Shown here: piece by piece, positions 7,647-31,219 of the stretch
Layout: the number at the start of each line of letters is the position of its first letter
How positions within the stretch are numbered: the stretch's first letter is position 1
Assembly: GCA_963924555.1 (NCBI GenBank)
Contig: OZ004586.1
Span: forward strand, 4,112,501 to 4,176,500
Direction: 5' to 3'
DNA from: Crambe crambe
Lineage: Eukaryota > Porifera > Demospongiae > Poecilosclerida > Crambeidae
DNA: 64,000 nt
The notes under the pieces: generated by a model
What the model saw: the letters and a program-made list of their open reading frames with translations, nothing else
Told to the model about the DNA's origin: nothing
The model's database searches: none
Program-made: the position numbers and the translations under genes

Positions 7647-10600
7647 TTAGAGAACCTGCTGCTTTGGCATAATAGTTTTCACAATATCTAGAACAGCCTT
7701 GGCATGCTCCTTTGCTTCGTTGGCCTGTTCAAGCATGTAGTGATCCGAAGGGGCATCTGTGTACCCCTCCCACCGATTGGGGTACCTTGTGTCCAAGTAG
7801 TAGCTCTCCAATGGAAGACAATGATACATGAGTCCCTGTGCTTGTTCAGGCTTGGTTGTTTGAACAGCATGGGCATATTTCGAGAGGTTGTTATCAATTA
7901 CGTCCCTCCCATCCATCCCACAGAGAGCATACACAGCTCCTTTCAAAGCCTTCTCCACTACTTGGTGAGCCATGAAACACACATAGCTATAACCACAGCA
8001 AGCACTGGCTTTATCATGAACAACACAAAGCACACCATATTCAACTTCTGCTTGCTTCACCCAACGCCTTCCTTCTTCCGGTCTCTTTTCATCCTTCTTC
8101 TCATCAAAAGGAAAAAAATGTGACCTGTTTCTATGTGAACGTGAACTAAATGACGCTGAACCACCTCCACAAGAGAAATACTCATCCTCGTAGTCCCATG
8201 ATGAATGATGTTGGTTCGCTGTATTATCCCAACGATAAAAGTTTCGTCCCCAACCAGAATTACGACTCCAACCAGAGTAATAATAACGTCTTCGTCGGTA
8301 ATTTCGCCCACTATTACTATGAGTGCTGAAACTTTGTGTCTCTGGAGTTACATCTTCTTCTGGGTCATCCATTGGCTCTCCTTTTTCAAGATGTTCGATC
8401 TGCTTTAGCATGAATTTGAAAATTTCTTCAGATTCTTCAGTTTTATCGGGGTTCTTATCTGGATGCCACCTAAGGAACATGCGTCTAATTGCTTTCTTCC
8501 TCAATTCTTCATCCAATTTCCATATTTCTTTCAGTTGCTCACATATTTTTCTCTTGATGTCAACTAGATTGTCATGAATCAGAGTTGCTCTCAATTTTGG
8601 GACGTCATCATCTTCATTGAATTCCACAAGAGCAAGATCATCATTGCCTGCTGGTTTAGGTTCAACCTTGCGTTTCTTCAGACCAACCAGAAACTTGTAC
8701 AATGTCAGAATGTTGACATCTTTACCATCATGGTCGTGCTCACTAGTGTAAATTTTATACCTTTGTGCCAATCTGTGTTCACCAGGTTTTAAATCTATTC
8801 GGTGGACAATCTGAGCCAAAATTATGTCATTTTCCTCGTCCTCATAACCAACATAATCCATTGAGTTGAAAACATTGTCGATGTCTTGATCAAGCCGATG
8901 GTGCCAGCATTGAGGAATTTTCTCTCCCAGTTTCTTTTTAAAACTGCGCATTCCTCCTCCACCATTGAAATCAATCCCATACTTTTTCTTTAGCTGACCT
9001 TGAAGTTCACTCCATTCGGTGGCCTTTAAGCATAATTCAATACATTTAATAACTTGTTTTTCCTCATAGGAAGTACTTAATCCTTGTACTGCTTTTTCTT
9101 TATGGATGACTTTACTTACGACATTGTAGTAAAGGTAAGAGGCTATTTCAGCACAAGCATCATTAATTTGGTCTGAACTAGGTTTTAATTGGTCATCCAG
9201 GTACAAGCACGATTCAGATTCTCCTGGTTCAAAGAAGTAGTCAGTCTCCTGTGTTCCTATACAGACAGAACCCTCTTTTAAAATGATTTCTGAACACAGA
9301 TTTTCAGCAGTTAAAATTCTAATGCCAGTTAGAAATAAGGTTATCCTCTCCTTTAAGTCATCTTCATTTTCTTGTTCTGCAATACTTTGCCGAATGATGA
9401 CCTGAACAATAGCTTCTGGAATTTCTTTCATTTGTAATGCTTTCATGAGCTGAGATGCTATTTTGGATTCTTTCACATGTTTACATTCCTTCTGCTTTCG
9501 CTGTGTACATGCTTCTGAAAGACCCACCAGCCGAACTGATTTAGGAAGCAATTTGCAGAAATGATGAGTGTGAAAATGGTAGTCTTCCACACTTAAATTG
9601 AAATGAAAATAATGCTCTACAGTTGTTAGATTGAGTTCAATTATACCCAAGTAGCTGTAATTGTCAGCATAGAGCAATGATTTTGAGGGCCTCATTATGT
9701 CATCAACATCAGGGAGGTAAAGTGGTGTAAGATAACACTCATATTCAAGAGTATTTGTCTCCTGTTTCGATTTGAGGAATTTGTTAAGGAGTTTTAGAGA
9801 TTTAGTGACACACTTGCTTGTATTGGGGTTGAGTTCAGCTCCTTCAGAAGCTGAGTATATGGCTTCCAGCACTATCTGCATGTGGCTTATTTCAAGCTTC
9901 TCTTTCACACCAATTCTTTCTAGGATATGGAGACCTTGAAGCTTAGTAGGTAACTTATAGAGGTAAGGATGATAGTCTGATACATCTTCTGCAATCACAA
10001 CACAACAAGGCTTTACCAGTACCACTTTCGTTTCAGTGACGGTGTTTGAAGCATTTCTAACTGAAGCCTTTTCAGCACTAACTGGTATGCAGGGGAGACT
10101 TTGTACTTTAGCAATGCTACTAATAAATCCCTTTTCTGCTTGGAGATAGCGTAAGTTTTCGCACATAATATCAAGCATATTATATCGGTTGTGGTCATGT
10201 GAACAGATCATGTGCTTGGGATAGTTTTCAAATAAACTTTGATCGGCATATTGACTCTTTTCACTGATATTTTGTATATTTGCAATCACTTCTGATGTGC
10301 TAGGATTTATAGTAATGCCAAGTGTATCAGTCATTGAAGAGCTACCAGTATTACATGACTTTGGGAGTTCAATAAGTGGTTTGACTGTCCAAAGCAGAGA
10401 GGCTAGTGATGATGAAGCTGAGCCTTTCAGTTTAACAGCTTGATTAACTGGGTAGGCACAAGGGACCACACAGTTCAATTCCGGCACATGCTCTGGTAGT
10501 ACAAATGCAATCTCTGAGACCCTATTTAAGAAATTCCAATCGTTTTCCCAGTCTTTTCTCACTTTATAGGAAAACATGTGGTCTAAAAGCACAGTAGAAC

Positions 10601-13600
10601 AAGCTCTGATATCTTTAACTTTTCCATCAGTTGTCTCTTGGCAGAATTCCATAAATTCTTCTTTAGTCACACACTGTTTTAGTCCCAGTTTTATAAAGAA
10701 GGACAGCCACTCTTTCTCTTGTCTACACTCATCTCTATACTCATCAGGTAAGAACAGGAAATGACTAGAAAAGGTTTGGAAAATTTTAACGGTGTGATCA
10801 CAGAAGGCAGAAACAGGATGTAAATTGCTTTCACCAATACAAGGCAGTGTTTTCATAGCAGATTTAAACTCACAAGCTTCACTTATTTTATAGCGAAAAT
10901 CCGAATCCAATCCTTTCATGTGAGTTGTAAAACCACTTAAGCGTTCGATATTATCATAAAAACGGTCTCTGATAAATCTTAAGTGCAAATATCGCTCCTT
11001 TGGGTTCATTTTATGAAAATGAGGGAAAATGAATCGGATGTATAACTTTTCTGCACTTATCGTTGTGATTGAAAACTGCTCTGAAGACCCAAGGGAGGAC
11101 CATTCGGTGCCAGCTTTGATAAAGACAGCATCATGTCCCTCCAGCCACTTTTGATAAGCCTCAGAACATGCTTCACTTGGCCAAATAAAAGCAGCTTTAT
11201 TCAGAATGGATGTGTAGCTGCCATCGATATTCATAAAGAGTGGAAGAGATTTTAAATGCTTAAGTGCTTCTGGATTCAGCTTGATGTTATTTGCCAAATA
11301 GCCAATTATCACATCTATTTCTTCATTGCTAAGTACCAAGTTAATTGAATTTTCTTGATTAATGTGATAAATGTTGCTCAATATTCGTTCATGATGGTCA
11401 GAAAGACTAGGGCAGCATGATAATGTGACCTTTACAACACTTGTATCAAGAAATGGCATCCTTAGCTTCTTCAAAACTTCACCTATCCTTTTCAATGAGT
11501 GCACCACTGGAAGGATGTTGCTTCTGGCTGAAAATGCCCTGTTATCAATAGTGAACAGCAAAGCCCAATTCTCCAGTACTCTCTCTATGTAGCATTTGAG
11601 AAGTCTATCATTGGAGAAACAATCCCAGTATTTGTACATCTTCTCACGAGGCAGGACTTCAGTAGCATTATTGACTTTTGCTACTGATTTCAAGCAATGA
11701 GGCAGATTGTCATCGAAAATATTGAGGATGAATCTCATTATCCTATCGGAGTCTCGATCACTGGGCTGAACAAAGTAAGAGTTGCTATAGTTAGCAACTA
11801 TTAAATCCTGATGGAGGAAACAGTCAAGACTGTTAGGAAATAATGTCAAATAAGGTGACATGATAATTTTGTTTTTCTCATCGAATTTTCTCATGATTCC
11901 ATTGGCAGTAACCAATAAGTAGTGCCCAAACGGTGAATGTGGAAATACATATTTTGTTCTATGAACACGAGATCTGGGAGACAAACCAAACAGACTAGGT
12001 TGATCTTGTGTTTCCTCACTAGACAAAAGATACTTTGTAAAAGCCAGAAAGGATTCGATGGTTCGAAATGAGCTATCTGAAATAGCAATGGGTTGTTTCA
12101 TAACACCTGATGAGAAAGTGCTTTTTTGGGTGAAATAATCAAAAACAGAATGTGGTGACACGGAGCAAAATCCAGTGGTAGGCTGAGGGAGTTTCAGCTG
12201 GGAGATTATTAGGTTGAAGCATTCCATGACTTCTATTGGAGCTGGTGTCATTTTCATTCCAATTGCTTTGAGAACCGGATAGATATCATCCCTGTGGAAA
12301 GAAGAATGAGGATAGAAATACACATGAGATGCTGATGTGGCACTTTTAGGAGGGTACCATTCAGCTCGGTATTTCGGGTTCTGATTCTCAGCTGATGCAT
12401 CAGTTGATCCAACTACACAGAGAACTTTAATATTATGCTCCAGTATCAACTTGTATACATCATGGGCTAAATCCTGCCAGCGATTGCCCTGAGATTTTGC
12501 TCCACTGAATCTTGGGAATAAACCGAAATATCTTTCAATATGATTCAATAGAGTGTGAATATCATTGTACTCTGGATTCAGGAAGTGTTGTTCAGCTTGA
12601 AGGAGAAAGTGAGTATATGATGAAACTATGGCTTGGATAAGGCTATCATTCCACAGTGATCGTTGATCTTGAGTGTTAGGGTCAGTTGACTTCCACAATT
12701 CCCTTCTTGTAGAGTTCAAAATAAAGTGACCATTAACATGAACAGGAAGATTACTGCTAATTGGAAGGGGCAAAAAACAGAAGACCTGTCCGTTAACTTT
12801 TTGGTCTTTTTGAGACCTTCGAGAACGTGACATGAGAGCAGCCATCCCATGCCTTGGTTTGACGGTTTGGACATACTTCCAAACTTGATCAGGATTATCA
12901 ATGTCACCTACTCCCTGCTGGATTAACCACTTTTGCTCGATTTTATTATGTACCCCTCCACTCTTATACTCTGTAAGAGTTAATGGATAAGTGATAACAC
13001 CTGCCTTGGATTTTGCTTCAGTCTTGAAGGCAGAAAGCATATCACGAAGTTTGATTCGATCAGCCGATGCCGATTCTGGTATCTGAGTTCTGAAGTGAAA
13101 CATTGACTTCATAACATCACTATCTTTCTCAATCACAAAGAACTTGATTTCGGTCACATTATTCAGAAAGAACATAGCATCTTTCATTTTAGGCATCCAT
13201 TTAGTAAGATCACTGTACAACTTCTCAGTATCAAGAGACCCTACACCGTCTTCACTTTTTTCAATGACTTCAGAAGCTCTTGCCATATCCTCTGAATGCC
13301 GAATTGGAAATCGAAAGAGAGAGCCTCCAGATATCTCTAAAGATACATCACTTAGACCATCATGGAGATAAGCTGACTTCAGGTCAGGAAAATCCTTCCA
13401 AAAATCTTGTGAAAGATCAAACCTTCTTCCAGGACTGAGTACATCTGCTCCAGGGACGTACCGACAGTGTGGATCCATGATGCAAAGTGTAGCATCATCA
13501 GTTATGAAACTTGGGCAATCAGTGAGGTGGTAGACAACGTTGAAACCTATCCCATATTGACCTATACTTTCTGCTTCCGAGCGCTTACTACCAAGACCCA

Positions 13601-16600
13601 GTTCTTGAATGCCTTCTAAATCTTTCTCACTGAATACACTGTCATTCCAAATCAGCAAGGCAGGACCTTGAAGATCTTGCCATTCTTCAGAAAACACACT
13701 GTTGGATCCGTGGAAACGCTTGTCCAGAATGACATATATTTTTTTTGCCTTAGCATCATCAGCATTCTGCAATAGTTCCTTCAGGATGGTGATATCATAG
13801 GGGTAGTCCCTGATAATATTCCTGATTCTTCTGGTGAGATTTTCATGTTGCCCAAATTCACTGCCTCTACGAAAACCATATTTTGATGAATGTTTATCAA
13901 GCAACTTTGACCTCACTGGTTTGACTCCAAGATCTCTTGCTAATTTTCTTGGTATCATGTCGTGAACATAAGTGTATGTATCATCTCGTTTAAGCCAATG
14001 GGCATCATTGTAGGCCAAATCAGTTGAGCAACGGAGGACAAGGTTTTCATCAGGAATCAAGATATGACACTTTTTATCAATAATATTATGATTCTTCTCA
14101 CTATGATGGCTAAATAGAGGAATAAGTTCAGACAACACAGCTTTGCATGACTCATCAACTGCTTTATCACCATAGTCATTCTTCATTTTTTTCAAGGCTT
14201 TCTGGATATCTTGAAAGGAAAATCTTTCCTTAATGTCAAGAGCTGAACACAGTGAATTCATTTCTGATAAATTCGGTGGCACTTTATATAAGTAGGGACC
14301 ATCTCGTGACCATTTGAAGGATACCATATCAGAATATACAAAGGAGTCATCTATCCAAATGCATGGTTGTTCCTTCAGACACACTAAAGCATCTTCCGTG
14401 ATATCCTTCTTTTCCAGGGCAGAATGGAAGAATCCATATATTATTTTGCATGAAACATGAATCCACTGAGGAGGAATATTTTTGAAGTTATCAATGATCA
14501 TTTCAAAGTGCTTGATAACTTGTGAAATCACAGGCAATCTTTTAAGATGCAAGATACTTTGTGCTTTTGCACTGATTCGGCCACACCCTCCATCTTTGGG
14601 TGCAGCCTGGCACACAAAAGCAACTTGAGTTCCAGCTAGTCTTGCTGATTCATCCCTGGGACCTGATAACATGAGCATGTCACCACAGCTAAGATGCTGT
14701 CCCTCAGCAAACCACTTTAAATTGAGAGGGTACTCTTTGGGCCTCTTCATAACAGGAAGAAATTTAATGGTATGAATATCACTTGGTGGATTGCCACTTG
14801 CATATGAAGTCATTGATTCAATTACTAATTGAACTCGCTCATTAGCTCGAAGCTCATCAGAGTTCCTGAGCTCGGTTATTGTGTGTGCACGTTCAATGAT
14901 ATAACTCCATGGAATAGTTTCACTGATTATGCCGACTTGTTTCATTGCCAGCCCAGCCAGATCCCTAGCAATGAGATCTTCATGTGGGAACATGCCTTCA
15001 TCAGCTTCATATAGTTTGGAAAACTTAGCAGAAGGATGTATCAGTTCACAACACTTCTTCAACTCATATCCATTAGGACTACAAGGAATGCAAGCATGAT
15101 TGGTCAAATAGTTTTGTAAGACCTTGCTGATTTCAGACCGATTATCACATCCAGATGCAAATGCCTCTAGCATGTACTGTATAACTTTATTTCTGCTTGA
15201 GCATAAATTGTTCAAAGATGGTAATTGAGAGAAAAAGAGGTGAATGAATTGCTTTTCATCAAGTAGGGTATCACCTAAATCAAAATAAGGTCTGAATTTC
15301 ATTGGGAGGTCTACAAGTGGGAGATTCAGGTGCTTCAAAACCTCTAATATGCATGGAGTCGCTGATTTGTTCAGGATGTTTAGCACCAAGAATTTACTGG
15401 ATCTCATAGTCAACCATTTATTTTGCATGTCAGAATAGAATAAGGAACTGGACTCTAGCTCTCGATATAAAGCTTTAACAAATAGGGGCCATGGGTCTTG
15501 CTGATAGAGCTCAGATTCTAGACGCCATAAACTATGAAATTCATAATATGATAATATTCTATTTTCGTGCATACACTTCAAACTTTTCAATAGTTGGAAG
15601 TAAGCAGTTGGGATAATATTTTCCATCAAAAATTTGTTCCATGAGACGTCTTCATCCGAGTCAGAAGAAGATGGGTCACCAGACTTCCAAATATCTCGGC
15701 GATTGTTATTGACAGCAAAATTGCAGCTGACATGAACGGAGAGTCCAGAGAATAGTGACAGAGGGAGATAGCAGAACACCTCACCTTTAAGTGACGTCTT
15801 CACATTGTAAAACACTCCACCTTCTTTCACCTCAACATCTAGCAAGCATGCCACAGAAGATACAGCTTCACGATCTCCATTGAGCCCAGTGCAATTTGAA
15901 ACCAACCAATTATTACTCTTGCTCTTATCACCTTTTACACTTTCAACTGAAAGAGCTGAAGTGTATTCAAGCGTTTGAGATAGTGAGAGTGGGATTTCTT
16001 TTCTGTGAATTTTGAAGAGTGTAGTTGGACTATCCTCACCGTCATTGATACGTTGGCACGTGATGGTACGTACGTGCTGAAGGAAGAGTATGAGATTATC
16101 ACTATGATTGTGAATATCCTCCAGTAACTGCATAGTGGATGATTTTGAGTAGCAAGTACCACTTAATTCACTTGAATGAGTACGAAAGGGTAACCTAAAC
16201 ATTGTGCCTTCATACTCCTTACTTCGATTGAAGCCAAAGAGATTCTCATAAGGCTCAAGCTGTTTTGAATTTTGAATTATCCTGGACATGTACCTTAGCC
16301 TTTTCCCAGGCAAAGCTGGATTTTTGACTTCATTTCCAAGATGCTTGAGGGTTGGATCAAATATATAGACTCGATCTCGACTTATGAAAGATGGAACATC
16401 TGTTACGTGGTATACTGAGCAAAATCCTATGCCAAACTTACCAATTTTCAAGCGCTTCCTTTGCTTTGTAGCACCTGCTAATTTGGTAATATTTTCAAAG
16501 TCCTCTTCGCTGAATGTCTGATTGTTGTGCACAATTAAAGCTGGGCCATGAGACTCTGACATTCCAGGGAAGAAAAGCTTGTCTTCATCCTTGGTATGAT

Positions 16601-19600
16601 TCCTTGCATCAAAACATATATTTACTTCAGTAGCTTCTGCATCATCTGCATTTTGAATGAGCTCCTTAATAATGGTGATACCGTCTTTATAATCTCGCAA
16701 GATATTCCTCAATCTTGCTGTAAGTGGTTCATACTGACCTGTGTCTTCGAAAGCATCATCAGAGATGTCCAATTCTCTACTCAGAGGAGTGAGAGAGAGA
16801 CATTCAGCCATTTTGAGACTAATGCACTTGTGGATGAAGAGAAGAGTCTTGTCTGTTTCTGATGCAATGGTAAACCTTTTCAGGAATTCATTATCAGTAT
16901 AAATGACTTCACTAGTTGCTCTCAAATCAGGCCATTCAGACTCTGATTCTACAGGTACATAAACGATTTTGTCACACTGAGGTAGAGATTTTGTTCCATT
17001 TTCTGTCAACCAGTTAAGAATTGCCATTATCAAACTCCACGATTCTTTAACAGATACAGATACTTTGCTGTTTATGATCTCTGTTTTGATTGTGTCCATA
17101 ATGGACACGATTTGCTCATGAGAGACGACCTTGTTCACGCCAAAAGCAACAAAAAGATCAGAGTAATTGGAAATGCTGTCAGGGAGTTTGTACACATAGG
17201 GCTCAAGATTATGTCGGAAGGTCGGATTCCACTCTAGTGCTACGATATCAGGACTAACAAATCTATTGCACTCTTTAATGTACACCCATTCCTTCAATGA
17301 TTGAAGAGTATTCAAATCAGATTTCGAGCCTTTCCTCAATATAGCCAGCACAGCAGAATATATTTTATGCAAGACATCAAGCATCTGGTTAGGTTCAATA
17401 GAGTTTTTGAGCAATATGACTTGTTCGAAATGAGCAATCAGGTTGCTTGGTGACTCCTGTGATGTCAGAACATCAGACTGCAACACAGAGTCTATGAAAA
17501 ACAACTGTGAGCCATACAATAAGGAATTTGATGGCTTGGAAACAGTTGCTATGGAGAGTGTTTCATTCAGAGTGCATAGGTGAGAAGAAAATCCTTTGCC
17601 TTTCCATGGAAGAACTGATGGATACTCTGAAGGTCTGTCACAGAGTATTGGTAACCAACACCTGTTGCTTGAAAGGAAGTCCAAGGCAGTGGTAAAGGGT
17701 AGGCATCCATAGTGCAAACTTCCCAGTTTATAGCTTCCATTTGCTGATCTCTCGAACTCCTTTCTTCCAACATGCTTCAAAAGTGCTTGGGCACGAGTGA
17801 ATTTTTGTCTGTCCACTTTCTGGGGGTTGGAGCTACTTGGCAGGCTAATGGAATATATTGTGTTGAGAACTTCTTGGGGGGTTATTGAAGATCGCAAACC
17901 ACAAGACCTGAGAACCACAAGGCATTTTTCTGTGTTATAAGGCTCACATGGAAAAACATCTTCGCCAGCAAAAATTGCACTCATTTCACTGTTCTTAGGA
18001 TCAAAAAGATCTTTAGGCCTCTTCCTCATACCAGATCTGATCTTGATGAAAGGGAGGCTCTGCATATCTTGCATAAAAGTGCTTTCTTTACTAGCAAATA
18101 TCTGCATTCTTGAAAGTACTTCAAGCATTATGGAATCGATACAGTCGTCCTGGATGGACTGGTTACGAATAAGGGAAAAGATGTGGAAAATAAAGAAAAA
18201 AGACTCATTTATAGTATGGACTTGCAGCTTACTCAGCAGTTGGTTTTGATAGTAGTCAGTGGATGAAAATACTAAAATATCTGATGGAAGGAGAGAAAAA
18301 TTGAAGATGTTAGAAGACGTATCCACCACTACTGGTTCTTGCAGACGAGAATGTTGGCAAAGACTCTTAACAGAATAGAGCTGATTAGGTGGTGAATTTG
18401 GAGAAGCTATGAATATACACAAATCATCGAGTACCTCTTTCACCTTTGGTAAGAAATTCAAGTCCTGAAGAAACTTCCTCAAGCTCTCTGCTTCAGATGA
18501 AGTTAGGATAACATCACTGTGGCCAGGACTATGAGATAAAGCGTCTATCAGCCCATTAGGCTCAAGAAATTTCAAATATGCATTCAAGCTGTTGTGCTTT
18601 ACATAAGGGAAGTTGTTTTGAACGCAGCACAAGATTTTGAATTTGTACAACATTGGGAGAAAAGATTGATCGCATTGTTGTGGTATAAATAAAATATTTT
18701 GGAGCTCATTCAGCCGGATGACGTCAAAGTGTGTACTGGACTGCTGATCGCTTGATATAGTTGGCAATATAAGTTTACTTGCAAAGATTTTGATATTTTT
18801 ATCCTGAACCCATTTCCAGAATTTTTCAAACCACTCCAAGGAAATTCCAGAAGAATTGGGGAAGGACACTTTGTTTGACTTCAGCCATGCTGTCGGAACC
18901 GACTTGTCCATTAAAGAAGCAACATCTACTACATTCAACTGCTTTAATTGAGTGCAATTGCACTGGGCTACACTACTCAGCAAACATTGCAATTCAGAAT
19001 CCTCTGAAACATCAACAAGCATTTCATCTAGGTTTGGCAAAAGATATCTAGGACATTCTGGTGTACAAAGATACACATTGCTTGAGTGTGACAATTGGCC
19101 TTCATATGTGACAAAAGTACTGTTTGATAGAGGCAATAGAGCCAAACCAACTATATCATGATATACTCCATCGGATAAGCAATACTTCAGCAGCTCACGT
19201 TTACCAATTGGGTCAATGCTATTATAACTGGAAGGACATGCTCGAAGCTTGTTCCTTGTGAATGCTGGAGCTACTCGAGTTACAGAGATGTTTGCCAACT
19301 TGAGAGCACACCATACATTAGTAGGGACTTCTACCAGTTTTACGCCACAGTTGGTGAGGCTACGTTCGACAATTGATTTCAGCTTTTGTGATTCAGGTAT
19401 GAATACTGCAACACTGGGTGTAACCCATTCACCTGACTGTCTGAGCGGTGCAGACCAGAGAACACTCTTCATGAGAAGAGAACCATATAATGGACTTAAC
19501 AGATCTTCCCAATGTGATCCTCTAAGCCTATTAACATCAGGCCAAGCTTTGTAGAAGACGCTACTGTCATGCATGTTAAAATGATTCTTAGCTTCAAGCA

Positions 19601-20449
19601 AGAGATCAACATAACAGGACGGTATGACTTTTACCAGGAGCTTGTTCCAATATGCCGTGGGATCATTTTTCCTCTCCACACCAGGCCACTTGAGACTCCT
19701 ACGGTCGTCAGTCAACCCAAATGTCCCATTCACATGAACAGGAAGATTAGAAATAGCCTCTATGGGCATTGGAAGGAAACAAAATATCCTGCCATTACCA
19801 GGGTTATCCAATTCCAAAGCTGTTCCAACCCAGGGGAAAACTTTCTGCTTGACAGATGCTCCCCTAACAGTAGAATTGGAGGAACCAACTTGATTAGCCA
19901 CTAACCATTGACTAGTGGTGGTTAGTCCAGTGTTGGCATTATACACACCGACATCAAACCTGGCAGTAAACTTCAACACATCAGGGAAATTGTACTGATG
20001 AGAATTGTGAATACGCTTTAGATCAGCTAATAGAGATCTACGTTTTTGTGAGAGCTCACTCACAAATGCATCAGCTACCTTAGTCTGGAATGAAAGAGTT
20101 TGGTTTCCATCTTCATCTATGCTGTAGACTTCAATTGATGTTATGGAGCGAAGAAATAAAAGCAGTAGGTTTGCTTCAGATTTCAAAGCATCTATCAGCT
20201 CTTTAATTTTCTCAATAGAATATATTTTCTCAGATAATTTGGACCCAGTGCTACGCAAGGGAAAGCGAAATAAAGTGTGTTCATAGGCTGAACTCTTTGA
20301 ATCAAAACCAGCTATGCCATTCAAAGGTGTCAGATGATCTGTGTTGACGACTTCTGACAAGATAAATGATCGACCAGACTCTCCTCGCCACAATTCTTCT
20401 TGAGGCTCAAGATAGGCTATTTTTGATCCACTGATGATGGAGGGTAAAT
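7647..20449 (-). CDS. Gene B exon 9: sacsin repeats 1-3, J domain and HEPN
   Basis: The acceptor TTACTAG precedes 20449 (phase 1); the exon codes for about 4267 residues without interruption. The second ATPase has its N-box [12 protein letters not shown] near 16627-16668 and lid [15 protein letters not shown]. The third has [12 protein letters not shown] near 13750-13790 and [15 protein letters not shown]. Each repeat carries the family signature FCFLPxP...LPVHVNGxF...RRxLWK (19700-19790, 15700-15780, 12690-12790). The J domain has WHPDKN at about 8452-8470. The HEPN domain ([10 protein letters not shown] to LDIVKTIM) lies at about 7665-7975 and is reached without the intron that precedes it in genes A and C. 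A Gly/Ser/Arg/Tyr-rich linker (RNYRRRRYYYSGWSRNSGW) lies between J and HEPN. The length is close to that of vertebrate sacsin, about 4.6 thousand residues. Confidence 0.9.
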
Positions 20450-23400
20450 CTAGTAAATCAACATTACTAAGGTAAGTAAGGTAAGGTATGGTTGAAATCA
20501 GGGGGTAAGTAAAAATACAGGTTAAAGGTGTGGGTTGTGTTGTAGTACATTTGAACTTTAAGTTCAAATGTAGCTTCTTTGATGGGCATGACACAAGCAG
20601 TATTATTAACTAAGTCTTTTTAGTAAGATACCTATGGTGAAACTCCACAATTGTAATGTAATGAGAGAGAGAGAAAAAAAAAACATTTTTGTGGGGAAAA
20701 AAAGTAGGGATGACCATTGCTCAGGACCTGTAAATCCAGCCATTACAGCACTACAGAACAGGAAGCCAACTCCTGTCGCTAGAGAGCAATTGCACAGTTG
20801 TATATCAAAAAGAAAGTATCCTCTATGAATGCTTCTGCTGAGAGTAAAGTTGCCTAAGGTTCGGCAGTGAAACTTCTATTTCCAATGTACACAATTAATC
20901 GTGCTTATGTGATATATGACATTGTGAACCTCAAGCAGACTGATATCTTCATGGCACAACATGCATGTACTTGTCATAAAGTTGCCTTGATGGAAAGTTT
21001 CCTCAGCAATTCATTTTGATAGTAGCTAATCACTGCTGGAGAATAAAACTATCGACTGAGGGAAGGCAGAGATGTCAACCACTGGATTGGAAGAGTGAGA
21101 TAAAGCCTTTTTCAGAATTGACTGAAAAGAAGCTTCAGATATGGATTGAGATATTGTGATATCTGCCTGTGTGTAAGGTAAGGAAAGCTGCTCTGTTTGA
21201 CACAGAGAATGCTGAACTTGTTCAATATTGTGATCATCTCATCACTGAGAGAAACATGGGATGAGGTTTTGATTTAATAGCTATTCGGCAAAATTGTTGG
21301 ATGAAAGCCAGGAACTTCAATTGGGACAATGCACTTAAGCCCATGAGGAATAGCACCAGCTCTGGCATTCCTGGGCAGGAAATAATCAACTATAGGGAGA
21401 AACCAGTGACAGTCTTAACTTTTATCATAACACCACAATGATATCTACAGTAATAGTACATTGTACGCACCATAGTGAAGTCATACATCAAAGGCACTGC
21501 CTAGTCTGATGTTGCAATGGCCAGTACTTATACCATATGCAATAACTTCCATAAACCACAGTTATAGAAAAAGTATAGTTTAAAAATGAATAAGAGAGTA
21601 GCAACAACCAATAGAGCTGGACTTGCACAGCTTTTATGCAGCTCTATGTACCATTGTGCTGCCTATAAGGATAGTCTAAACTGTACTGTAACTTGAATGT
21701 ACAAGCCAGTTGGATTATGGCTTAAGGGAAATACACTCGAGGTAGTCCATTTAGACCACTTGGCTCCACCTCATGATCTAAATGAATAGCCTCTGGGTAT
21801 TTCCATAAACCGCTCTAAGCCATAGTTTAACTATAACGTAAACATTTGATGTTTGACTTATCATCCCTACATACATCATTTTCATTTGTTATTTTACTTG
21901 TGTAATTACAGTACAACCATGTAATAGTAATAGTACAGCACACTCACCAGTGAGATGGTAGACAGAGTTGAAGCCAATTCCAAATCTTCCCACTTTGAAG
22001 GGATCCTCAGCCTTGATGCTTTGCTGGAGATTCTGTATTCCCTCCCAGTCCTCATCAGAGAACATGGTGTCATTGGCAAAAATGAGAGCAGGTCCTTGGT
22101 AAGGGGCAAGACCATAGTGTAGCAGGGATGAAGATCCATGTTGTCTACAATCCACATAGAACTGGACTTTAGTTGCTCCAGCATCATCAGCATTTTGTAT
22201 CATTTCCTACACACACAAAGAATAAATCATTTCAGCCTTCTAAAATATAGCTATATAGCTGACAACAACAACAACAAAAAACAACCAGGTCCTAGCTATA
22301 TATTTTTCTGCTATCCATTACAGATGAGTAGTTGTTTTATTCCTGTAATCGATACAGGACACCTTTCTAATCAGGATACATGTAAGTTCTTTCAATATAC
22401 CAGTAGATGCCCCCAAATATACGTGCTACCAGTGTTGGAAGGATTTTGAGAAATTTTTTTGTAGTGAATATTCTCATGGGGGGGGGGGGGGGGGGGGGGG
22501 GAGTTGCCATAGGAAATGGGGGAGTTCTAGAGTTGGGGGCCTAACACATGTTTACTTCGCCATTAATTTACTTATCACCTGTTAGAAATCTTTATAATAC
22601 CTACCAGCTACGTAACTACCTTGAAAATCTGGCCATCTGGATATCTCTTCAGGATCTGCTTTATAGTGACAAAGAGTGGTGGTCTTCTCTGACCAAACTC
22701 TTCTCCTGAAATTACAACAGCATATCACCATCATGGTGGATAGGAAACCGTATGTTAAAACCCTTTTAATCCTTGTCCTCTCACATCTTCCCACAAACTG
22801 CGTGGCAAAAAGTGGCTACAATGGCTCCAGTACAAATTGTAGTAGCTAGTTTTGAACTTACCAGAGTTTATAGATGCTCAAATAGATGATATTTTGCTAA
22901 CTGTTAAACTTCAACTTACTGTAAAAAAACCAGTTGCTAAGTGAACTCTACAATGGAGAAAGGCACACTAAATTTGCAATTTATGGCTCCACCTATGAAC
23001 TTATTGCCTTCTTATTAGTTGAGTTCATGCATGCAGCTAGTCATTTTTCTTTCATGAAGAATTGCTACGTAGGCACTCAATTGTTTGCTACCAAGAGGTA
23101 CTCTTTGACACTTTCTATATTGCTGCTTAAGTGATAATTGCACACAGAATTCAGGCAAAGAATGAGCTAGTTTAGATGCTGGCTCAAGCAACACTTTAAA
23201 TACCATGGAGATCATATTCTCCATCAGTCCCATGAAACTGCCCGCAGTCTGTCTAACTGTCACTCGCAGACCAGAGCGGGAGGACACGAATTAATTGTGT
23301 TAATGTAGTTCCTTTTCCGTATTATGTATAGTCTATATAGCATAATAAAACAAGACCTGTATAATAAAAGTTCTATAATGCAGACTCGTAGCTAGTTAGC

Positions 23401-26400
23401 ATGTAGGCACAGGACACCATGATAAAAATGTACTTACCTGCTGAAGTATTTTGTCTTGAACGGTTCACTTCTTGTTTTTCATAAGAAGATGGGGGCCTAG
23501 GGTTCTGAATCCCTGTTGACCTATGAGCTGCATATGGTCCAGGTGGAAAATATGGATCTTCTTTAATGTCCTGATATTCTTGTATTTCATAAGAAGGTGG
23601 AGGATCCCGATTTTCATAAGGTGGAGGAGAATATGTATTTTCTTCTGGTGGTGAATAAGGTGGTAAATCATCAGTCTCAGTTTCCTTATGATCTGGTAGT
23701 GTTGATGGTGGAGAATACTTGCTCGATTCCTCACTGTCAAATGCTGCACATTGCCCTAGTAATAATTATGAAAGGAAAAAATTTATGCTAAATAAAAAGG
23801 CCATGTTGGGTTAGCCTGTACTTTAACAGTTTCTGTCAACAAAAATCAAAATAATGCTGCCTTCAATAATAATCCCTACATCACTGCCTCCCACCAAGTT
23901 GCTTTAATTGTTCATGTCAGTATAAAAGTGTTCTGCTTGGTTTAGGCGGTGATGTAGGGATTATTATTGAAGGCAGCATTATTTTGATTTTTGTTGACAG
24001 AAACTGTTAAAGTACAGGCTAACCCTACATGGCCTTTTTATTTAGCATATTTTTTTTCCCTTTCACTTGTTTGTTTACTTTTTGTATGACCTTTGAATAT
24101 TGTTTTCAAGTAAAAATAGCTTGTTGGCACGCACGTACGTGCACGGATAGTGACAGACGCACACGCATGACAAATGATTCATTTTTAAATGGCTGACATA
24201 GTTATAATGAAAAGTCGTTCTGTATGAGTGATCATTTTGAAGGGAAACTGTGGATATAACGATGGTAAAAGCATATTGTGTGGTTATAACTGCACAAGTT
24301 GATATAAATTTCGTTGTCATATGTGAAAGGATCATGGAGTTACAGCCATCAAAGAAGAAGATGATGATGATGATGAATGAATCATAAGAATTTCAGATTT
24401 AGGTGGCGGCTGGTGCCGATCGTTGATGCTGTTCTGGAGGAGTTTGAGTGGTCATATCATCATCTTCTGCATTGTTTTCCAGATGTAAGAAGTTTAGTTG
24501 AACCTGTACCAAGAATACAGAGAGTCTAGTTTGTATTGTTCTAATGAGAGAAGCCACGCCCATTCCGTGCTAACCCTACATAGAGAGTGCTACCACACTC
24601 TCTGATAAGTATTATATGTAATAGTGTAAAATTCCACTGCTATTCTATTCTCTAGCTACAGGATACTGAAGTGCTAACCCTGAGCGCACACATAAGGCAC
24701 AATAGTTTAAAAAGTGTGCTCTGTAGTTACAATTACTATAACTAAGAGTGTACAAAACTTATTGCAGATACTGACCAGGAGATCACACATAGTGAGTTAG
24801 AGCTATATACTAATTATTGAGTCAGGTAATAGGTTGTACAACAGAAGTGCAGAATAAGCCATTATTCAAAAATTGACGCAATTTAAACACTGGAAAGTAT
24901 TGCCTAGACATCATTGAAGCTGAAGTTGAAGCCTACTGGCTGCAGAGTCGATGTGACAAAATTATTAATCTTTGAATTTGAACACTAGAGAGTATCGATT
25001 ATCTAGATATTAGGCAGAAATTAATTTACTTGTTTAGCGGATTTCCCTACCCTATTTTTGACAAATATTTAAACATGTATATCCTAGTATATCTTTGTAG
25101 CTATACCTTTGTATACTAGAATAACATTGACCATTATAGCATTACATAATTCATAGTATACTGAATAGTATTCAAGTTAATTTTTAAGTTTATTATGACC
25201 TGCCTGCCTGAAAGAAGGTGAAAAAAAAAACAAACAAAAAAAACAATTAATTTTCCCAGTAAATACACATCACAGACACGATACCCCCCCCCCCCCCCCC
25301 TGTGTATGTGCACTGAGGGTTTATTATACTTGATGGGACATGCTCAGTAGGTAGAATTATAGCTTATAGCCTAAACCAAATTCATTCAGTACTTGGATGG
25401 AGCAGTGAGACTATCAACCTACAAGTTCTTACTGCATTCAGTAATGAATGCAATATTATATACCAGGATTTACCTGGACCAAACTCACCTAATCTTCTCT
25501 AGAGCTGACTATTAATTTTCTGTTTTTGTATAATGGAACTAGCTATGTTGAGACTATAAGTTACTAGCTATGATAAGCTCTTGATTTACTTTTAGACTAT
25601 GTTCCTAGTTTGGATTAAAGATACTCACTCATATTGACATCATCTGAAATGGGAAGTTCAGCTTCAGGTGAAGAAGTGTCTTCGTGAGATTGTAGGCAGA
25701 TTGCTGTAAGAACATCTTGATTTGTACTTTCTTGCTCCGGAAGAAGAAATTGGTAAGTACCACATTTAAGCAGCTGCACTCCAATGCTTAACAGTTTTTT
25801 TTCTTGCTCATGACTTAATGGAAAAACTTCATGTTCACGAGGACATTTAAACTTGAACTCATAACAATCATCTTCTTCAGCACAAAAATTTAGGCTTAAA
25901 TGCACTATACTTGATAAGTCATGCTCAAAGGTTTCCATGGAAGTAATTGGAAAATAAACTCTGATAAATAATGAAGAGTAATCCCATAATGAATCAAGTG
26001 ACGAATCAGTTGTTAAGTCATGATCAGATGCTGATAGGGGATCTTGATTTCTTTCAAATGCAAGGTGAAACTCATAAGTTTCACAGTTAAACGATTGCAC
26101 TCCAATTTCAAGCAGTTCTCTTTCTTGTTTATAACTCAGTGGAAATATTTCTGGTCCGCATTTATAAGGATATTTGAATTCATATAGACCATCCCTTTCT
26201 TCATGAAAGGATAGAGTAGTTAAACCCAATACACATGACAAGTTCTTCAAGAGACTTTCTGTTGAACTTGAAGCTGTACGATGATTAACTCTCACAGACA
26301 AAGGGAAGTAGGCATCCATTGTGCTGGCATATGGATCAAGTGATAAAGCAGTTGATGGCAGTGCTACAGGTAGCTGTTGTAGACATGCTAATAATGGCAA

Positions 26401-29400
26401 ATTTCACATCGATAATAAAAATTAATGACTTGTATAATTGAGATAATAATCATAATGGTTAGTAGATTTACGTACCTTGCTAGCTATAATAAATCACCAT
26501 TGATATAATTAAGGGGGCTCCGACATCCTGCCCACACACTTATTTTGCAGGTTGCTAGGGACTGATATCGAGACTACCGACACTTGCAGAGATAAGCTAC
26601 AAAGACCACAGTGGAGGACTTATCTAAGGTCGCTGATCTCCCAAGAACTAGGAAAAACGGGGCAGTTACCGAGAGGCTAGCACCGCTTGAAGCTAAAAGG
26701 ACTAAAATTAATACTTCTTTTTTGTGCTAAACTTACAATGTTAAAAATAGTTTCACATCCTTCCTTTGCATGCAACTACAGATCGAACTGTCTATATATA
26801 ACCTAGCTTCCTAGATACACGAATTTCTAGCTTTAGAATGAACTGCTGAAAGCGCTGATCACTTCAGGTTTTGAAGATTTCCTAATCCCATCCGTAGCTG
26901 TCTACCCCAGACCATGAGGAAACAACATGCCAAGTACGGACTCTTCTGGATTTACTGGCGTCTGCAAGTATACCGATACACAGCCCCACCCCACTATATC
27001 CAGCAGGATGCCGATTCTTTCTACCGTTGGTCGAGTGATCGCTCATCCCACGGTGAGGCGGCCCTGATCCTGGACTCAGGAGAGTCTGGCTCTCTCTCTC
27101 TCTCAACGCTACACTTTATACTTGTCTGGATCTCAATACCTCTTTGTACTGGAGGTCTGCTAGCCCAGACTAGCTCTGGAGTTAGTCTCGCTCGGGCCAG
27201 ACTCTTCCGGTGACACTGGCTCTGGAATAAGCTCTAAATCTGGCGCTGGAAATAATTATAGATTGCCTACATTATTTTTCTTCAGGAGTGCTACCTATAC
27301 TAGCTATTATAGCTACATGCAATTGAATGAATTATTAACTATTATTACTTTTCCTGCTTGTATGGGTCATGTACTACCTGCACAAAGTTACATTCCTATG
27401 GTTTTTCAGCTCATTTTCCACAATAACGAGTTCTGTTATTAGTATATTTAGTTGCGCACGCGTAGTCATGTCGGAGCCCCCTTAAGAAATACTGGCAGAA
27501 ATTAAATTTGGCAGATTGCTCTCATTCAGGAAAAATTAAAACTTGGCGGATTTAATATTGGTGGAATACGCATGCTCATTGGCACACATGCGAGAGTGCT
27601 TACACACACACATGCTATATTGAGCAACACGAGTAGCTACTCTCAATGGATCAATGGCGTCTGAATTCTCTGTTGACAGCTGTGTTAGGGGACATCATAT
27701 CTACAAAAGTATCTGGACACTGACTCTAGGATGATCCAGCTGTTGCTTCACTGCATCATCTAGCAGCTCCTAGATCAATCGACCTTGTTTTTTTGTTGTT
27801 GTTGTGTTTTTTTTTCAGATTCGTAATGTTGACGACCTTTACCATACCAATGTAAGACTTTAATTAATTTTGATGATCAACCACCAAACTGCCAAATTAC
27901 ATTCTCCACCAATATTTCCAGCCATACAGTATAACCATTATAGACATAATATGATTAATAGTTGCTTTTTCATGCAATTACACTGTGATTACCTATACTA
28001 ATGAGGAAACAGGATAACAGAAATCATTATGACATTGTAATGTCATGCATGTATAGCAAATACATACCTTTTGACTTAGAGTAGAATATTTTTAATACCC
28101 CAATTCCTTTCAGTTGACTTAATTGTTTCTCATTCAGAGGAAATATATCATTCAACTCATGAAAAGTGCAGAAAATTAGAGTAATGGATCCAGGTTCCAC
28201 TCCACGTAAGTATACGGGTATGCCAAGCAGTTCTGATAACTCAGATTCTAGCTCATAAACTTCTTCTGCTGGGACATCAAAAATTTTATCAGTCTCAATG
28301 CCGATCTTTGCTTCATCTTGCACAGAGGGTCCTCTCATGTCAATAGGTACTTCACAAAGTCTACGTTTACAATAAGCTTTGAATCTTAACTCATATTCAG
28401 TCAATCTCTCCTTGTCATCACTTGTGCCAAAGTCACTAATGACACTCTTCAAAATTCCATAACTGAAGAAGGAACAATGCTCAAATGTTTTTGAAAGTAA
28501 CTGATCAACAATATAGTCACATTGGTTTATTCCTGGTATCTTGAGGATAACTAACGATGTTTTTAGAGCTGGAATATCTCCACAGGTAGTTGATAAAGAC
28601 TTGATAGTTTGAACTACCAGAGTAACAAATTGATATCTGATCTTTTTGCTTTCTGTTACCAATCTTCCCATGAGCCTTTTCTTTTCTTTTTCTTCTAAAT
28701 CAACAACTTTTAAATAAGGAAACTTTTCTTTCATTTCACTGCCACCTGACATGAAAGTATCAATTTATTCAGTGTACAGTTACTTCCTAATTTTGAACCC
28801 ACCTTCATCATTTGAAGCAGTGCTATTTTGAGGGGGATCGCATCTTTCAGGTTCCTTCTCACTGCTAATCGTTGCATTACTATTATGAGTTGACTCTGAG
28901 GTAACTATTATATTCTGATGATAACCTGGGTGAGGGGGAATTATTGTCTCAAGGAGTGTGCAATACATCACCACTCCCTCAGTTTCAAAGGAGTTATGCT
29001 CCCTTTATCTATGTCAATGCTTGCATTAGCTCAGAACGGTTCTCAAGGTATACTTATAAGCAGGGGCGGATCTAGCCCTTGAAATTGATAGTCTTCCACC
29101 TGTCACTTGCGCGCACGTGGGCACGCCCACCTTTGCTTAGCTACGCCCATTGGTGCTGATGGCCCAGCTATCTCGAGTAGCCTGTAGCTAGCTAAGCTTC
29201 AAGTAGCTGTAGCTTGTAGCTAGCAATAAACTGTACTGGCTGGAACTAACCAAATGCTAAGTGCTTTACCTTTCATTCTTGTATAATTAAAATCAGTCCG
29301 CGCACGCGATGACGATCTTTACCTAATATCCAAAATAATTGACCGTCTTCTGGAACACGGAAGAAGACTGCCTAAATCCGCCCCTGATAAGTCACAGCCA

Positions 29401-31219
29401 CTAATACATCCCCAGCATACCAGAGAGAGATATGTGGATGCCACATATAGACTAATACTAAAATGAAGTTCCAGTTCCCCCAATTGAACTTAACAAAAAG
29501 CTATTATCCAAGTAGTGCAGAACAAGCTTCAGGACCAAGGCTTCAACTCTTTAATTATGTTAAGATATGTAATGTATACCATAAAGCACTTAGATAAGCC
29601 TAGTGCAGGTATAACACACATGCTCCAATTATAATTGCCCTGTGACAAGAAGCTGGAAGGAGACAGATGATTTATTCAATGCAACAAATACAACACATTG
29701 CATGAGACTGTCGACAGGAAAGCTATAGAGATGAAGAAAGTAAAAGAAGATGCTGAGAGATTTATCGATTTCTACAGCCTTTGTCATAATGGGTATAGGC
29801 GTGCATATTGCATGACACATACCATACAACATTTTTGGAGTGTAGATCTAGTTCAGCGAGCAAACTGACTCTCAGGTCATGACTCATTGAAATTTACGTC
29901 TACACTCCAAAATACCCCAGACTATGTGCGGTAGGTACGGTGGTATGCGTCCCAAATTAGTAGCACTGCACATGCATAATGTGCATCCTCCAATAGTAAT
30001 CGAGCTAGATTGTTTTCTACAGCCTTTTGTCATGGAGAGATAGGCTAGTACTTGTGGTATGCATTTACAGCTTTCTATATGTCCTGACCACTAACATGAC
30101 TCTTGTCTCTGACAGCAATATCAAGCACTGGAGCCTATCAGCTACTTTGATTGCTCACTTGGTCACTTTCAAATGCTGTGCATTGTTAGAGTAGTAGTTG
30201 TAGAGGCTCTAGGCTTATCTTACATATAAACAAAATTAAAGAGTTAAAGCGCTAAAGAATACTTGCTTGCTCGCTCGCTGTCAAATGTTGCACATTGCCC
30301 TAGTTATACAAAGTTAGTCAGCTCACTTGCTGTGCTCACTTGTTGAAGTATGTAGTTGGCAAGTGAAGTAGTGAACTCATTTGAGCTTCAACTCCTTAAT
30401 TATGCTATGATATGTAAGTGGTGGCTCCAACCAGCTGCATACGTATAGGAAGCTGTATACACGTCAGGAGTGCAACCAATCAAGCTCTATAGCTATGTTG
30501 CTTCAAAGGTCAAAACAAACTTCTAATAAATATTCCGTGGCTCACTTCACTCGTCAATGACTCAACAGCAACAATTTCAAGCACAAATAAATAGAGCCTA
30601 CCAGCTCTTGCTTGCCAAATGTTGCACATTGCCCTATGAATTTCTTTTAGCTATAATAATTAAAGTTACCATGAATAATGCTAAGTAGCTGTACCTTGTG
30701 TGATGTGATCAGCAAGTCCTGTTTGACTAATTTTTTCAAGTGCTGTTGTTAAGCTCTCCCAGCTGGGTTCACCACTCTTCTCAGAGACAAAGTCTTCCTT
30801 TTTGAGCCATGCAGCAACCATGTCCTCACGCAATGGCTCCATTTCCTTCAACTTTGGATAGAAGAGTCCCAGTGCCCCACCCAAACTAATCAAGTTGTTT
30901 TTATCCAAATCTTTCAGAAATTGAACAACTTCGAAATGGTTTTTCATTGTTAATATTGCTATATCAACAAACAAACAAACAAAAAAAGATGAAGTCATCA
31001 TAGCTATATAGAGAGTGGGATTTTTGAATAATTCTCACCAGGTCCTGGATTTACTTCAATGTCACCAGCCAGTATCAGTAAGATGGAGATTACTACTTGA
31101 CTGTCAGTATAATGGATAACACAGCCATCTCCTCTTTGTAGATGCCTCCAGCACTCTTTCAGCAGTGGGAAATTTTTAAAGTAGGAGCCACATGGACAAT
31201 CTTCAATTGTACTATTCAT
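7647..31219 (-). CDS. Gene B: giant 2A-Death-sacsin-like protein (nine exons)
   Basis: Exons on the minus strand: 31219-31039, 30958-30695, 28925-28803, 28745-28068, 26387-25629, 23755-23438, 22705-22620, 22206-21948, 20449-7647. Every junction has GT/AG borders and matching phase (all phase 1 except one phase 0). The sum is 15471 bases, exactly 5157 codons including the stop. Domain order: leader with 2A motif, Death domain, acidic linker, helical region, three copies of an unnamed repeat, PPxY proline-rich segment, three sacsin repeats each headed by a Hsp90-type ATPase, J domain, HEPN. Sacsin is a giant co-chaperone; Death domains recruit partner Death domains in innate-immune and apoptotic signalling. 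The start ATG has an in-frame TAA six bases upstream. The joining is inferred from phase and splice signals; a split into two genes between 23755 and 25629 remains possible. Confidence 0.75.
20720..21345 (-). pseudogene. Decayed sacsin exon fragments inside gene B intron 8
   Basis: This intron holds stretches nearly identical to the coding exon of gene C: 20755-20900 matches about 46585-46710, 20990-21140 matches about 47150-47310, and 21140-21345 matches about 47495-47690, all in the same orientation. They are separated by deletions and interrupted by stops. The source looks like a gene C-type paralogue rather than gene B itself. Confidence 0.7.
21948..22206 (-). CDS. Gene B exon 8: first Hsp90-type ATPase core
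   Basis: The acceptor GTGTGTAG precedes 22206 and the donor CTCACTG then GTGAGTG follows 21948; it enters in phase 0 and leaves in phase 1. It encodes the Bergerat-fold ATP-binding signatures: [12 protein letters not shown] (the N-box helix whose Asp contacts adenine), [20 protein letters not shown], and the lid region [15 protein letters not shown]. These are hallmarks of the sacsin N-terminal repeat. The next exon continues [16 protein letters not shown]. Gene C has the same 259-base exon at 50253-50511. Confidence 0.9.
22620..22705 (-). CDS. Gene B exon 7: entry to first sacsin ATPase
   Basis: The acceptor GTAATTTCAG precedes 22705 and the donor TTCAAG then GTAGTT follows 22620; the exon enters in phase 1 and leaves in phase 0. 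It codes for [20 protein letters not shown] then YPDGQIFK, the start of the first sacsin repeat (compare FGQ...ILxRYPDGxQILK in known sacsins). It is matched by 51388-51476 in gene C. Confidence 0.85.
23438..23755 (-). CDS. Gene B exon 6: proline-rich segment with PPxY motif
   Basis: The acceptor ATTACTAG precedes 23755 and the donor TTCAGCAG then GTAAGTAC follows 23438, phase 1 on both sides. The exon codes for 106 residues containing LPPYSPP, SPPPYENRD (a PPxY match), DPPPSYEIQE and RPPSSYEKQE. PPxY peptides are known ligands of WW domains, notably of NEDD4-type ubiquitin ligases. The four tyrosine motifs are spaced about 13-35 residues apart and suggest a repeated docking platform between the Death/repeat module and the chaperone body. 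The segment is otherwise acidic and probably disordered. Confidence 0.7.
23770..24064. repeat. Near-perfect 295-bp hairpin (fold-back element) beside the exon 6 acceptor
   Basis: Left arm 23770-23898 and right arm 23937-24064 are almost perfect reverse complements (for example GGGTTAGCCTGTACTTTAAC against GTTAAAGTACAGGCTAACCC), with a loop of about 38 bases. It starts only 14 bases from the exon 6 acceptor, inside intron 5 of gene B. It is probably a young MITE; a transcribed form would fold into long double-stranded RNA. Confidence 0.85.
24540..24625. repeat. Remnant of the AGAGAGTG hairpin MITE family
   Basis: CATAGAGAGTGCTACCACACTCTCTGATAA is a short palindrome matching the ends of elements at 50655-50867, 51985-52154, 56344-56530, 57866 and 62882. 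Only one end is present here. The rest of gene B intron 5 up to 25628 holds a GAT microsatellite at 24357-24376 and a 17-base poly-C run at 25284-25300. Confidence 0.5.
25629..26387 (-). CDS. Gene B exon 5: second and third copies of the unnamed repeat
   Basis: The acceptor CCATTATTAG precedes 26387 and the donor ATATGA then GTGAGTAT follows 25629, phase 1 on both sides. The exon codes for 253 residues. Two tandem copies of an approximately 85-residue domain can be aligned by eye: LYEFKYPYKCGPEIFPLSYK with QERELLEIGVQSF and YEFHL, and CYEFKFKCPREHEVFPLSHE with QEKKLLSIGVQLL and YQFLL. With the copy in exon 4 this makes three. The signature is (I/V)FPLSxxQExxLxxIGVQ. No established family name comes to mind. 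The spacing suggests a small alpha/beta domain. Confidence 0.7.
26507..27488. mobile_element. TTAA-flanked DNA element in gene B intron 4
   Basis: The termini TTAAGGGGGCTCCGACAT (26509-26526) and ATGTCGGAGCCCCCTTAA (27468-27485) are perfect 18-base inverted repeats that include TTAA at both ends. The element is about 0.98 kb. The open frames inside are short, low in complexity and do not resemble a transposase. It belongs with the TTAA-type element at 4687-5285 by target site but has different termini. Confidence 0.75.
28068..28745 (-). CDS. Gene B exon 4: helical region plus first copy of an unnamed repeat
   Basis: The acceptor TTTCATGTCAG precedes 28745 and the donor CAAAAG then GTATGT follows 28068, phase 1 on both sides. 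The first 150 or so residues look alpha-helical and contain an aromatic-rich motif (SFFSYGILKSVISDFG) followed by LTEYELRFKAYCKRRLCEVP. I recall the pattern generally from sponge and cnidarian Death-domain proteins but cannot name a family. The last 70 residues form the first copy of a repeat seen twice more in exon 5: a short helix (ELESELSELLGIP), two probable strands, and the signature IFPLNEKQLSQLKGIGVLKI. The junction carries the repeat end into exon 5. Confidence 0.7.
28803..28925 (-). CDS. Gene B exon 3: polar linker
   Basis: The acceptor CCCCCTCACCCAG precedes 28925 and the donor GATGAAG then GTGGG follows 28803; both are phase 1. The exon codes for 41 residues rich in Ser, Asn, Glu and Pro, with no recognisable domain, and is probably a flexible tether between the Death domain and the helical region. 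The weak donor (GTGGG) makes alternative splicing conceivable. An upstream ATG in the same open frame exists but lies before the acceptor. Confidence 0.6.
29061..29386. mobile_element. MITE with CAGGGGCGGAT termini, in gene B intron 2
   Basis: Terminal inverted repeats beginning CAGGGGCGGATYTAG lie at both ends, flanked by a perfect 5-bp target duplication ATAAG (29056-29060 and 29387-29391). It is 326 bp long with no coding capacity. The termini resemble hAT-like non-autonomous elements, although hAT usually makes 8-bp duplications. Confidence 0.8.
30120..30640 (-). pseudogene. Three decayed copies of the start of the PPxY exon
   Basis: Near 30160-30190, 30262-30310 and 30600-30640 the minus strand repeats the acceptor and first codons of exon 6 (23755 downwards). 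The best copy reads an acceptor CTAG, then GQCATFDSERASKYS in frame before a stop; the real exon reads GQCAAFDSEESSKYS. They lie in intron 2 of gene B. A further, inverted copy is present near 53520-53560. Confidence 0.55.
30695..30958 (-). CDS. Gene B exon 2: Death domain
   Basis: The acceptor is TTGATATAG before 30958 and the donor is ACACAAG then GTACAG, phase 1 on both sides. The 87 residues fit a complete Death domain: an N-terminal helix FEVVQFLKDL, the segment GALGLFYPKLKEM, then the family's best-conserved core VAAWLKKED, GEPSWESLTTALEKI and a closing GLADHITQ. Death domains form homotypic complexes upstream of caspase or NF-kB signalling. After 2A skipping the mature protein would start with Pro and AILTMKN, placing this domain almost at the new N terminus. 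Confidence 0.85.
31039..31219 (-). CDS. Gene B exon 1: leader ending in a 2A ribosome-skipping motif
   Basis: Sixty codons from ATG, ending LLILAGDIEVNPGP, followed by one G of the next codon and the donor GTGAGAAT. The tail fits the 2A consensus D-(V/I)-E-x-N-P-G-P exactly. In 2A sequences the ribosome fails to form the Gly-Pro bond, releasing the upstream peptide and continuing from Pro. A short hydrophobic run (VVISILLIL) precedes the motif, as in 2A leaders reported from invertebrate NLR-type genes, where they can also act as signal sequences. The same motif is common in non-LTR retrotransposons, but here the exon splices in phase to a Death domain and no reverse transcriptase follows. 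Skipping would release a 59-residue leader. Confidence 0.75.

Follow-up and report, generated by a model that had tools for sequence, protein, structure and literature searches.

The gene studied here, from the sponge Crambe crambe, appears to couple a Death-type signalling front to a sacsin-type chaperone body. It lies in a stretch of 64,000 nucleotides (the window, C9:4112501-4176500) of a genome that was searched as 143 Mb in 119 contigs. The explanation we favour, with a probability of roughly 0.6 for the whole, is that a gene of the sacsin cluster carries a 2A-Death-TRADD-N front attached through phase-1 introns, that StopGo recoding would release the leader, and that the front would cluster the sacsin body.

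Gene model

The gene (gene A) runs on the minus strand from 31219 to 7647, where nine exons can be joined with GT/AG borders and agreeing phases (Table 1). The summed exons come to 15450 nt, that is 5149 amino acids and a sole, terminal stop. The initial annotation had proposed a nine-exon chain of this kind encoding 5156 residues; the chain stands, with GT/AG borders and agreeing phases at 31039/30958, 28068/26387, 25629/23755 and 23438/22705, but the length does not, the two figures being 21 nt apart. Introns are in phase 1 after E1 to E6 and after E8, and in phase 0 after E7. Because all the introns from E1 to E7 are in phase 1, each of E2 to E6 could be moved or skipped with the frame intact. 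E9 is a single open frame of 4266 residues, counted after its initial partial codon. Poly(A) motifs are present in several introns and do not discriminate between one gene and two.

Table 1. Exons of gene A and features recognised in or between them (positions in the window)
Feature	Position	Strand	Description
E1	31219-31039	minus	ATG and 60-aa leader ending in LLILAGDIEVNPGP (StopGo/2A motif)
E2	30958-30695	minus	Predicted Death-fold domain, 87 aa
E3	28904-28803	minus	Short linker exon; paralogue C has a copy
E4	28745-28068	minus	Helical region, then TRADD-N-like domain with GS turn
E5	26387-25629	minus	Two repeats with weak likeness to the end of E4
E6	23755-23438	minus	Proline-rich; PPPY, PPSY, LPPY
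E7	22705-22620	minus	Start of sacsin repeat 1; without ATG; phase-1 acceptor
E8	22206-21948	minus	SACS domain of repeat 1 (EMIQNADDA ... GIGF)
Relict in intron 8	20755..21336	minus	Decayed fragments of a B/C-type sacsin exon 9; 81.7%, 91.4% and 73.7% to C, with similar values for B
E9	20449-7647	minus	Remainder of sacsin repeat 1, repeats 2 and 3, J domain, HEPN
Best SACS stretch of E9 (repeat 2)	16017..16730	minus	Matches sacsin structures 5v44-5v47
Repeat 3 QNADDA region	13521..13778	minus	Motif
J domain core	8388..8498	minus	HPD intact (RWHPDKNP); best PDB match 1iur (KIAA0730), E 1.9e-14
HEPN domain	7677..7994	minus	PF05168, E 9.6e-9, 35.9 bits, cut-off 22

Is every exon of this chain equally secure? 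E6 looks like the weakest part of the model. No second copy turned up in the genome (five candidates were scored and the one match is E6 itself), it is missing from the paralogue C described below, and it opens with 16 residues that are similar to a stretch at 30297-30250 (E 0.005). As a phase 1-1 exon it could also be skipped with the frame kept. There may be one gene in which E6 is abnormal, either skipped or derived from a repeat, and PPxY does not characterise the family. This would be compatible with the favoured explanation and is possible, if clearly short of probable: the splice sites of E6 are good, it carries PPxY-type motifs, and a front relative on C8 has a proline-rich PPAY segment in the equivalent place, although the match between the pair is weak (E 0.016). 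By eye, a repeated sequence starting GGCAATGTGCA occurs in the window at 30300-30240, 30650-30600 and 23757-23710, and one of its copies contains the acceptor and first codons of E6. In the C8 relative itself (L074, 2403-2888, minus) the proline-rich stretch with PPAY is followed by Cys-rich repeats and then by a hydrophobic C-terminus; its product is perhaps a tail-anchored Death-TRADD-N protein.

The StopGo leader exon

The end of E1, DIEVNPGP, fits the D(V/I)ExNPGP pattern of StopGo/2A sequences, and its phase-1 donor lies one base past the NPGP codons. C has a 71% match to E1, and across the genome the leader has 82 matches, unsorted, some of which could stem from other families or from retrotransposons. 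Among the 30 best Death loci (L012-L041, with A and C included and L014 and L015 overlapping), 15 have a 2A motif upstream, and in 15 of these 15 the donor falls one base after NPGP. Besides A, then, there are 14 loci with (D/N)(I/V)E-x-NPGP and an identically placed donor; at two further Death loci (L018 and L024) the leader is altered. The pattern was not found at any of 30 sacsin loci (L042-L071). A 2A element within one protein had been proposed for this gene: the motif is there, but if it works there is no single product, and a 59-aa leader and a protein of about 5090 aa would be made. The main product would therefore begin at residue 60.

Could the motif be inert and the protein be made as one chain? 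That would be compatible with a single gene. The hydrophobic stretch ahead of the motif is short (about residues 42-52 of the leader), and one that starts near residue 42 is unlike a classical N-terminal signal, which makes a signal-sequence role less clear than in the sea urchin. An inert motif is nevertheless rather improbable, given DIEVNPGP in A itself, the repetition of motif and donor position at 14 more loci, and the recoding activity of sea-urchin leaders of the same kind in reporter assays (PMC4981915). Among the titles and abstract openings listed from the open-licence literature we found none that describes a 2A leader on Death genes or a sacsin of sponges, and a 2A leader exon that by its sequence ends exactly at the StopGo site, here ahead of a sacsin, is apparently new.

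The Death and TRADD-N-like domains

E2 is predicted to adopt the Death fold, a helical bundle. Its AlphaFold model has a pLDDT of 89 and seven helices, and in a Foldseek comparison the first 25 of 48 matches are without exception Death, PYD or CARD domains (TMq 0.43-0.64, probability 0.20-0.97; best E-value 0.19, with none below 0.1). Fold comparison was used because sequence searches of the PDB with E2 and with its profile (A1) gave matches at chance level. A Pfam scan of E2 itself returned no match, PF00531 included; across E2 and its relatives, PF00531 matches weakly in 9 of 27 rows (best E 0.0091). Death domains over the Pfam cut-off number at least 150 in this genome (best 150 of 965 candidates).

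What follows the Death domain? The hallmark of TRADD-N is a tiny residue plus Ser/Cys in the turn between strands beta2 and beta3 (PMC8195603), and in the second half of E4 (for which we infer the strand positions) a GS or GC turn is present in all six rows that reach the turn, the seventh ending before it. PF20694 (TRADD-N) does not match E4 itself and matches one of the seven rows of its family at E 0.0081, under the family cut-off. An E4 relative at C17:4462832-4463485 (E 3.3e-12) is the sole genome match over the PF20694 cut-off. The second half of E4 is therefore likely to be TRADD-N-like, an assignment reached stepwise through the turn residues, the one weak PF20694 row and the C17 relative. 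The AlphaFold model of E4 is of low confidence (46), too poor for a fold search, and the two matches that E4 yielded in a profile search of the PDB were weak and meaningless. E5 resembles E4 in short weak matches only. Among the matches listed, 11 loci have an E4 of 68% identity or more, and at every one of them an E5 match lies within 2 kb after E4; a sacsin match follows the front at two of these loci, A and C. In two other front copies (L075, L076) a clear C-terminal continuation was not seen; a third (L077) is followed by a 211-aa open frame with an initial Met, perhaps the next gene.

The sacsin body

The remainder of the protein is sacsin-like. Three SACS sets carry QNADDA, at residues 800, 2148 and 3110, together with GIGF motifs; PF25794 matches E8 at E 5.7e-35 and E9 at E 1.1e-166 in three stretches, and among structures the SACS body matches human and lizard sacsin (5v44-5v47). 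Pfam DnaJ scores E9 at 21.3 bits, under its cut-off of 27.8. The HEPN domain matches the structures 1ufb and 1o3u and, more weakly, that of sacsin (3o10, E 0.0073). The domain search proposed with the initial annotation thus bears out SACS and HEPN, leaves DnaJ below its cut-off and gives no accepted family for E2, E4, E5 or E6. An action of the HEPN domain on RNA had also been envisaged. The HEPN RNase motif is Rx4-6H (PMC3710099), and by eye, in the C-terminus and the HEPN alignment, it is not at the expected position. Cutting of RNA is therefore unlikely; binding is possible.

One gene or two?

That the front and the body belong to a single gene, as first proposed, is well if indirectly supported, by a paralogue, by an absent start codon, by Death or TRADD-N matches upstream of such start exons, by dN/dS values and by the intron phases. 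The paralogue (C; C9:4204616 to about 4185800, minus) lies on the same strand as A, about 61 kb away. It has E1-E5, E7 and E8 in A's order and phases, at a DNA identity of about 78-89%, and so keeps the order 2A, Death, linker, TRADD-N-like, repeat, sacsin; E6 is absent and the distance from E5 to E7 is about 700 bp. When A and C are aligned as DNA the matches sit on exons, and their introns share scattered, mainly inverted, repeat-like matches and the intron-8 relict, nothing else. Pooled over E1-E5, dN/dS between A and C is 0.49 (bootstrap 0.39-0.63; E1 0.63, E2 0.47, E3 0.63, E4 0.41, E5 0.55), and it is 0.18 for E7 and 0.11 for E8, the front being far less constrained than these two. C is the sole other copy, among the matches listed, with the whole front before a sacsin; its big exon has in-frame stops.

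How do other sacsin genes of this genome begin? We surveyed 25 first-repeat sacsin exons (L042-L064, L066, L068), of which 23 have a visible start exon; L059 and L068, where the preceding start exon is not visible, were left out. The start exon has an in-frame ATG in 19 of the 23 and none in four (A, B, C and C6:3268331). In A, an in-frame TGA stands nine codons ahead of FGQ, shortly upstream of E7, and a splice acceptor lies a few bases ahead of FGQ, near the position of the relatives' start codon. As its sacsin start exon has no ATG of its own, A needs an upstream exon. Three of the four ATG-less sacsins (A, C, C6:3268331) have a same-strand Death or TRADD-N match no more than 10 kb upstream, versus one of the 19 with an ATG (C18:2738991), in a by-eye scan of the matches listed (best 150 of 323 and best 150 of 208 candidates). 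If the loci were independent this would give P = 0.009; paralogues are not, which makes this value too low. For the second sacsin gene of the window (gene B), neither a Death nor a TRADD-N front was found in the 12.5 kb that the window holds upstream, so the loss of an ATG is no proof of a Death front.

Alternatively, E1-E6 could form a Death-TRADD-N-PPxY gene of its own, followed by a separate sacsin gene with an unrecognised first exon upstream of E7. Left unspliced, E6 runs for 20 more codons to a stop at 23375-23373; what follows the C8 front relative is not sacsin but an exon rich in proline and Cys that has a hydrophobic end; no sacsin match follows nine of the 11 close E4-E5 copies (among the matches listed); and gene D, a close relative of the body described below, starts at its own ATG. 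Two genes would, however, have to accommodate an E7 that lacks an ATG and has a stop in frame before it, a front in C that stands about 700 bp ahead of E7 in phase and without E6, and phase 1 at every front junction, and we consider this arrangement unlikely.

Origin of the gene

Where does a single Death-sacsin gene come from? The E9 of A is intact and 95% identical to that of D, the head-to-head neighbour of C, which has its own ATG and no front. The synonymous distance is 0.47 for the front between A and C versus 0.12 for E9 between A and D. The relict in intron 8 matches neither D nor A's own E9. The simplest reading of these sequences is that a C-like Death-sacsin gene had its big exon swapped for a D-like one, the debris remaining in intron 8. 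E8 is about equally near C (88.9% identity) and D (91.3%), so that the breakpoint is not fixed. This chimeric origin is apparently new. That the result is a recent chimera without function, as a B/C-type relict beside an E9 so close to D and the stops in the big exon of sister C might suggest, is very unlikely in view of an open frame of 15.4 kb and dN/dS values of 0.26 (A-D, E9) and 0.49 (A-C, front), both of which constraint on the other copy would lower too.

The sacsin expansion in this genome is large, the 25 first-repeat exons being found on C9 (3.92-4.22 Mb and 7.58-7.66 Mb), C6 and C18. Gene B (window 51498-36615, minus) has a start exon without ATG, two QNADDA in its big exon and another in a small exon of its own, and a HEPN-like stretch on a separate open frame; no HPD was found in its big exon or tail. 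At C6:3265738-3268588 (L066) lies a sacsin of another type whose start exon lacks an ATG; some 1.3 kb upstream of it is a module like TRADD-N (26% to E4), and the two may form a second TRADD-N-sacsin fusion, separate from the first. In the right-hand part of the window, 63967-61500 and 59017-57060 hold similar open frames in the same order, which suggests a duplication that spans about 2 kb or more.

Proposed mechanism and implications

In the favoured explanation the front would derive from a large Death/TRADD-N gene family built from 2A leader, Death, linker, TRADD-N-like and repeat exons. When a ribosome reaches the StopGo site, the 59-aa leader would be freed and a protein of about 5090 aa would continue from Pro60; without release, the leader would stay on and could alter the destination of the protein. 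The Death and TRADD-N domains may recruit adaptors or polymerise with them, clustering the sacsin body, in which three SACS repeats (of the GHKL ATPase type) and a J domain that brings in Hsp70 would remodel client assemblies, conceivably in an immune or stress response. The HEPN domain may serve in dimerisation or ligand binding and not in RNA cutting. More speculatively, and with the odds against it, the StopGo leader exon, spread by phase-1 exon shuffling, might in this animal be a general switch on Death/TRADD-N effectors: each ribosome would choose between free release and a leader-attached product sent elsewhere, and elongation stress would set the split.

If this is right, the chaperone of a human ataxia would be tied to cell-death adaptors in an apparently early animal lineage. 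Anantharaman et al. suggested in 2013 that Death-sacsin proteins act in a suicide response to unfolded-protein stress (PMC3710099), and gene A would offer a concrete gene for this proposed link. N-terminal 2A leaders, described for sea-urchin NLRs, would also occur, in the form of a portable exon, on another set of death-domain genes, so that one could test whether dual targeting by StopGo is a wider rule. The intron-8 relict would show, in a visible trace, how a fusion was put together.

Comparison with known systems

To the initial annotation this domain order was not known from any described system; its core, however, is in print. Several sacsin-like proteins of Amphimedon queenslandica are fused to DEATH domains (gi 340377463; PMC3710099), and Burroughs et al. 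(2021) reported Death-like plus TRADD-N units with variable C-termini in Amphimedon as well as TRADD-N-sacsin fusions in the DEDD2 clade (PMC8195603). With these reports, the core order cannot be called new.

Gene A shares with human sacsin (5v44-46, 1iur, 3o10) the three SACS repeats, the J domain with its HPD and the HEPN domain. It differs in its Death-TRADD-N front, and E2, E4, E5 and E6, the front exons scanned, gave no ubiquitin-like match. The Amphimedon sacsins resemble it in having an N-terminal Death domain, in their several paralogues and in coming from a sponge; they are set apart by description only, in that the account given of them makes no mention of a 2A leader, TRADD-N or PPxY (PMC3710099). 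The Amphimedon Death-TRADD-N units likewise join Death-like and TRADD-N domains to differing effectors, but the section on the NCOA6 clade, which includes Amphimedon (section 10), does not name sacsin or mention a 2A leader (PMC8195603). The sea-urchin leaders, described in 2016, share the N-terminal 2A-like motif on Death-domain proteins and partition their NLRs between the cytosol and the secretory route (PMC4981915), as a 2026 StopGo paper restates (PMC12846837). The urchin leaders are 26 aa long, and prediction makes signal sequences of 12 of 14 (PMC4981915), whereas the leader here is 60 aa long and heads a gene that is not an NLR.
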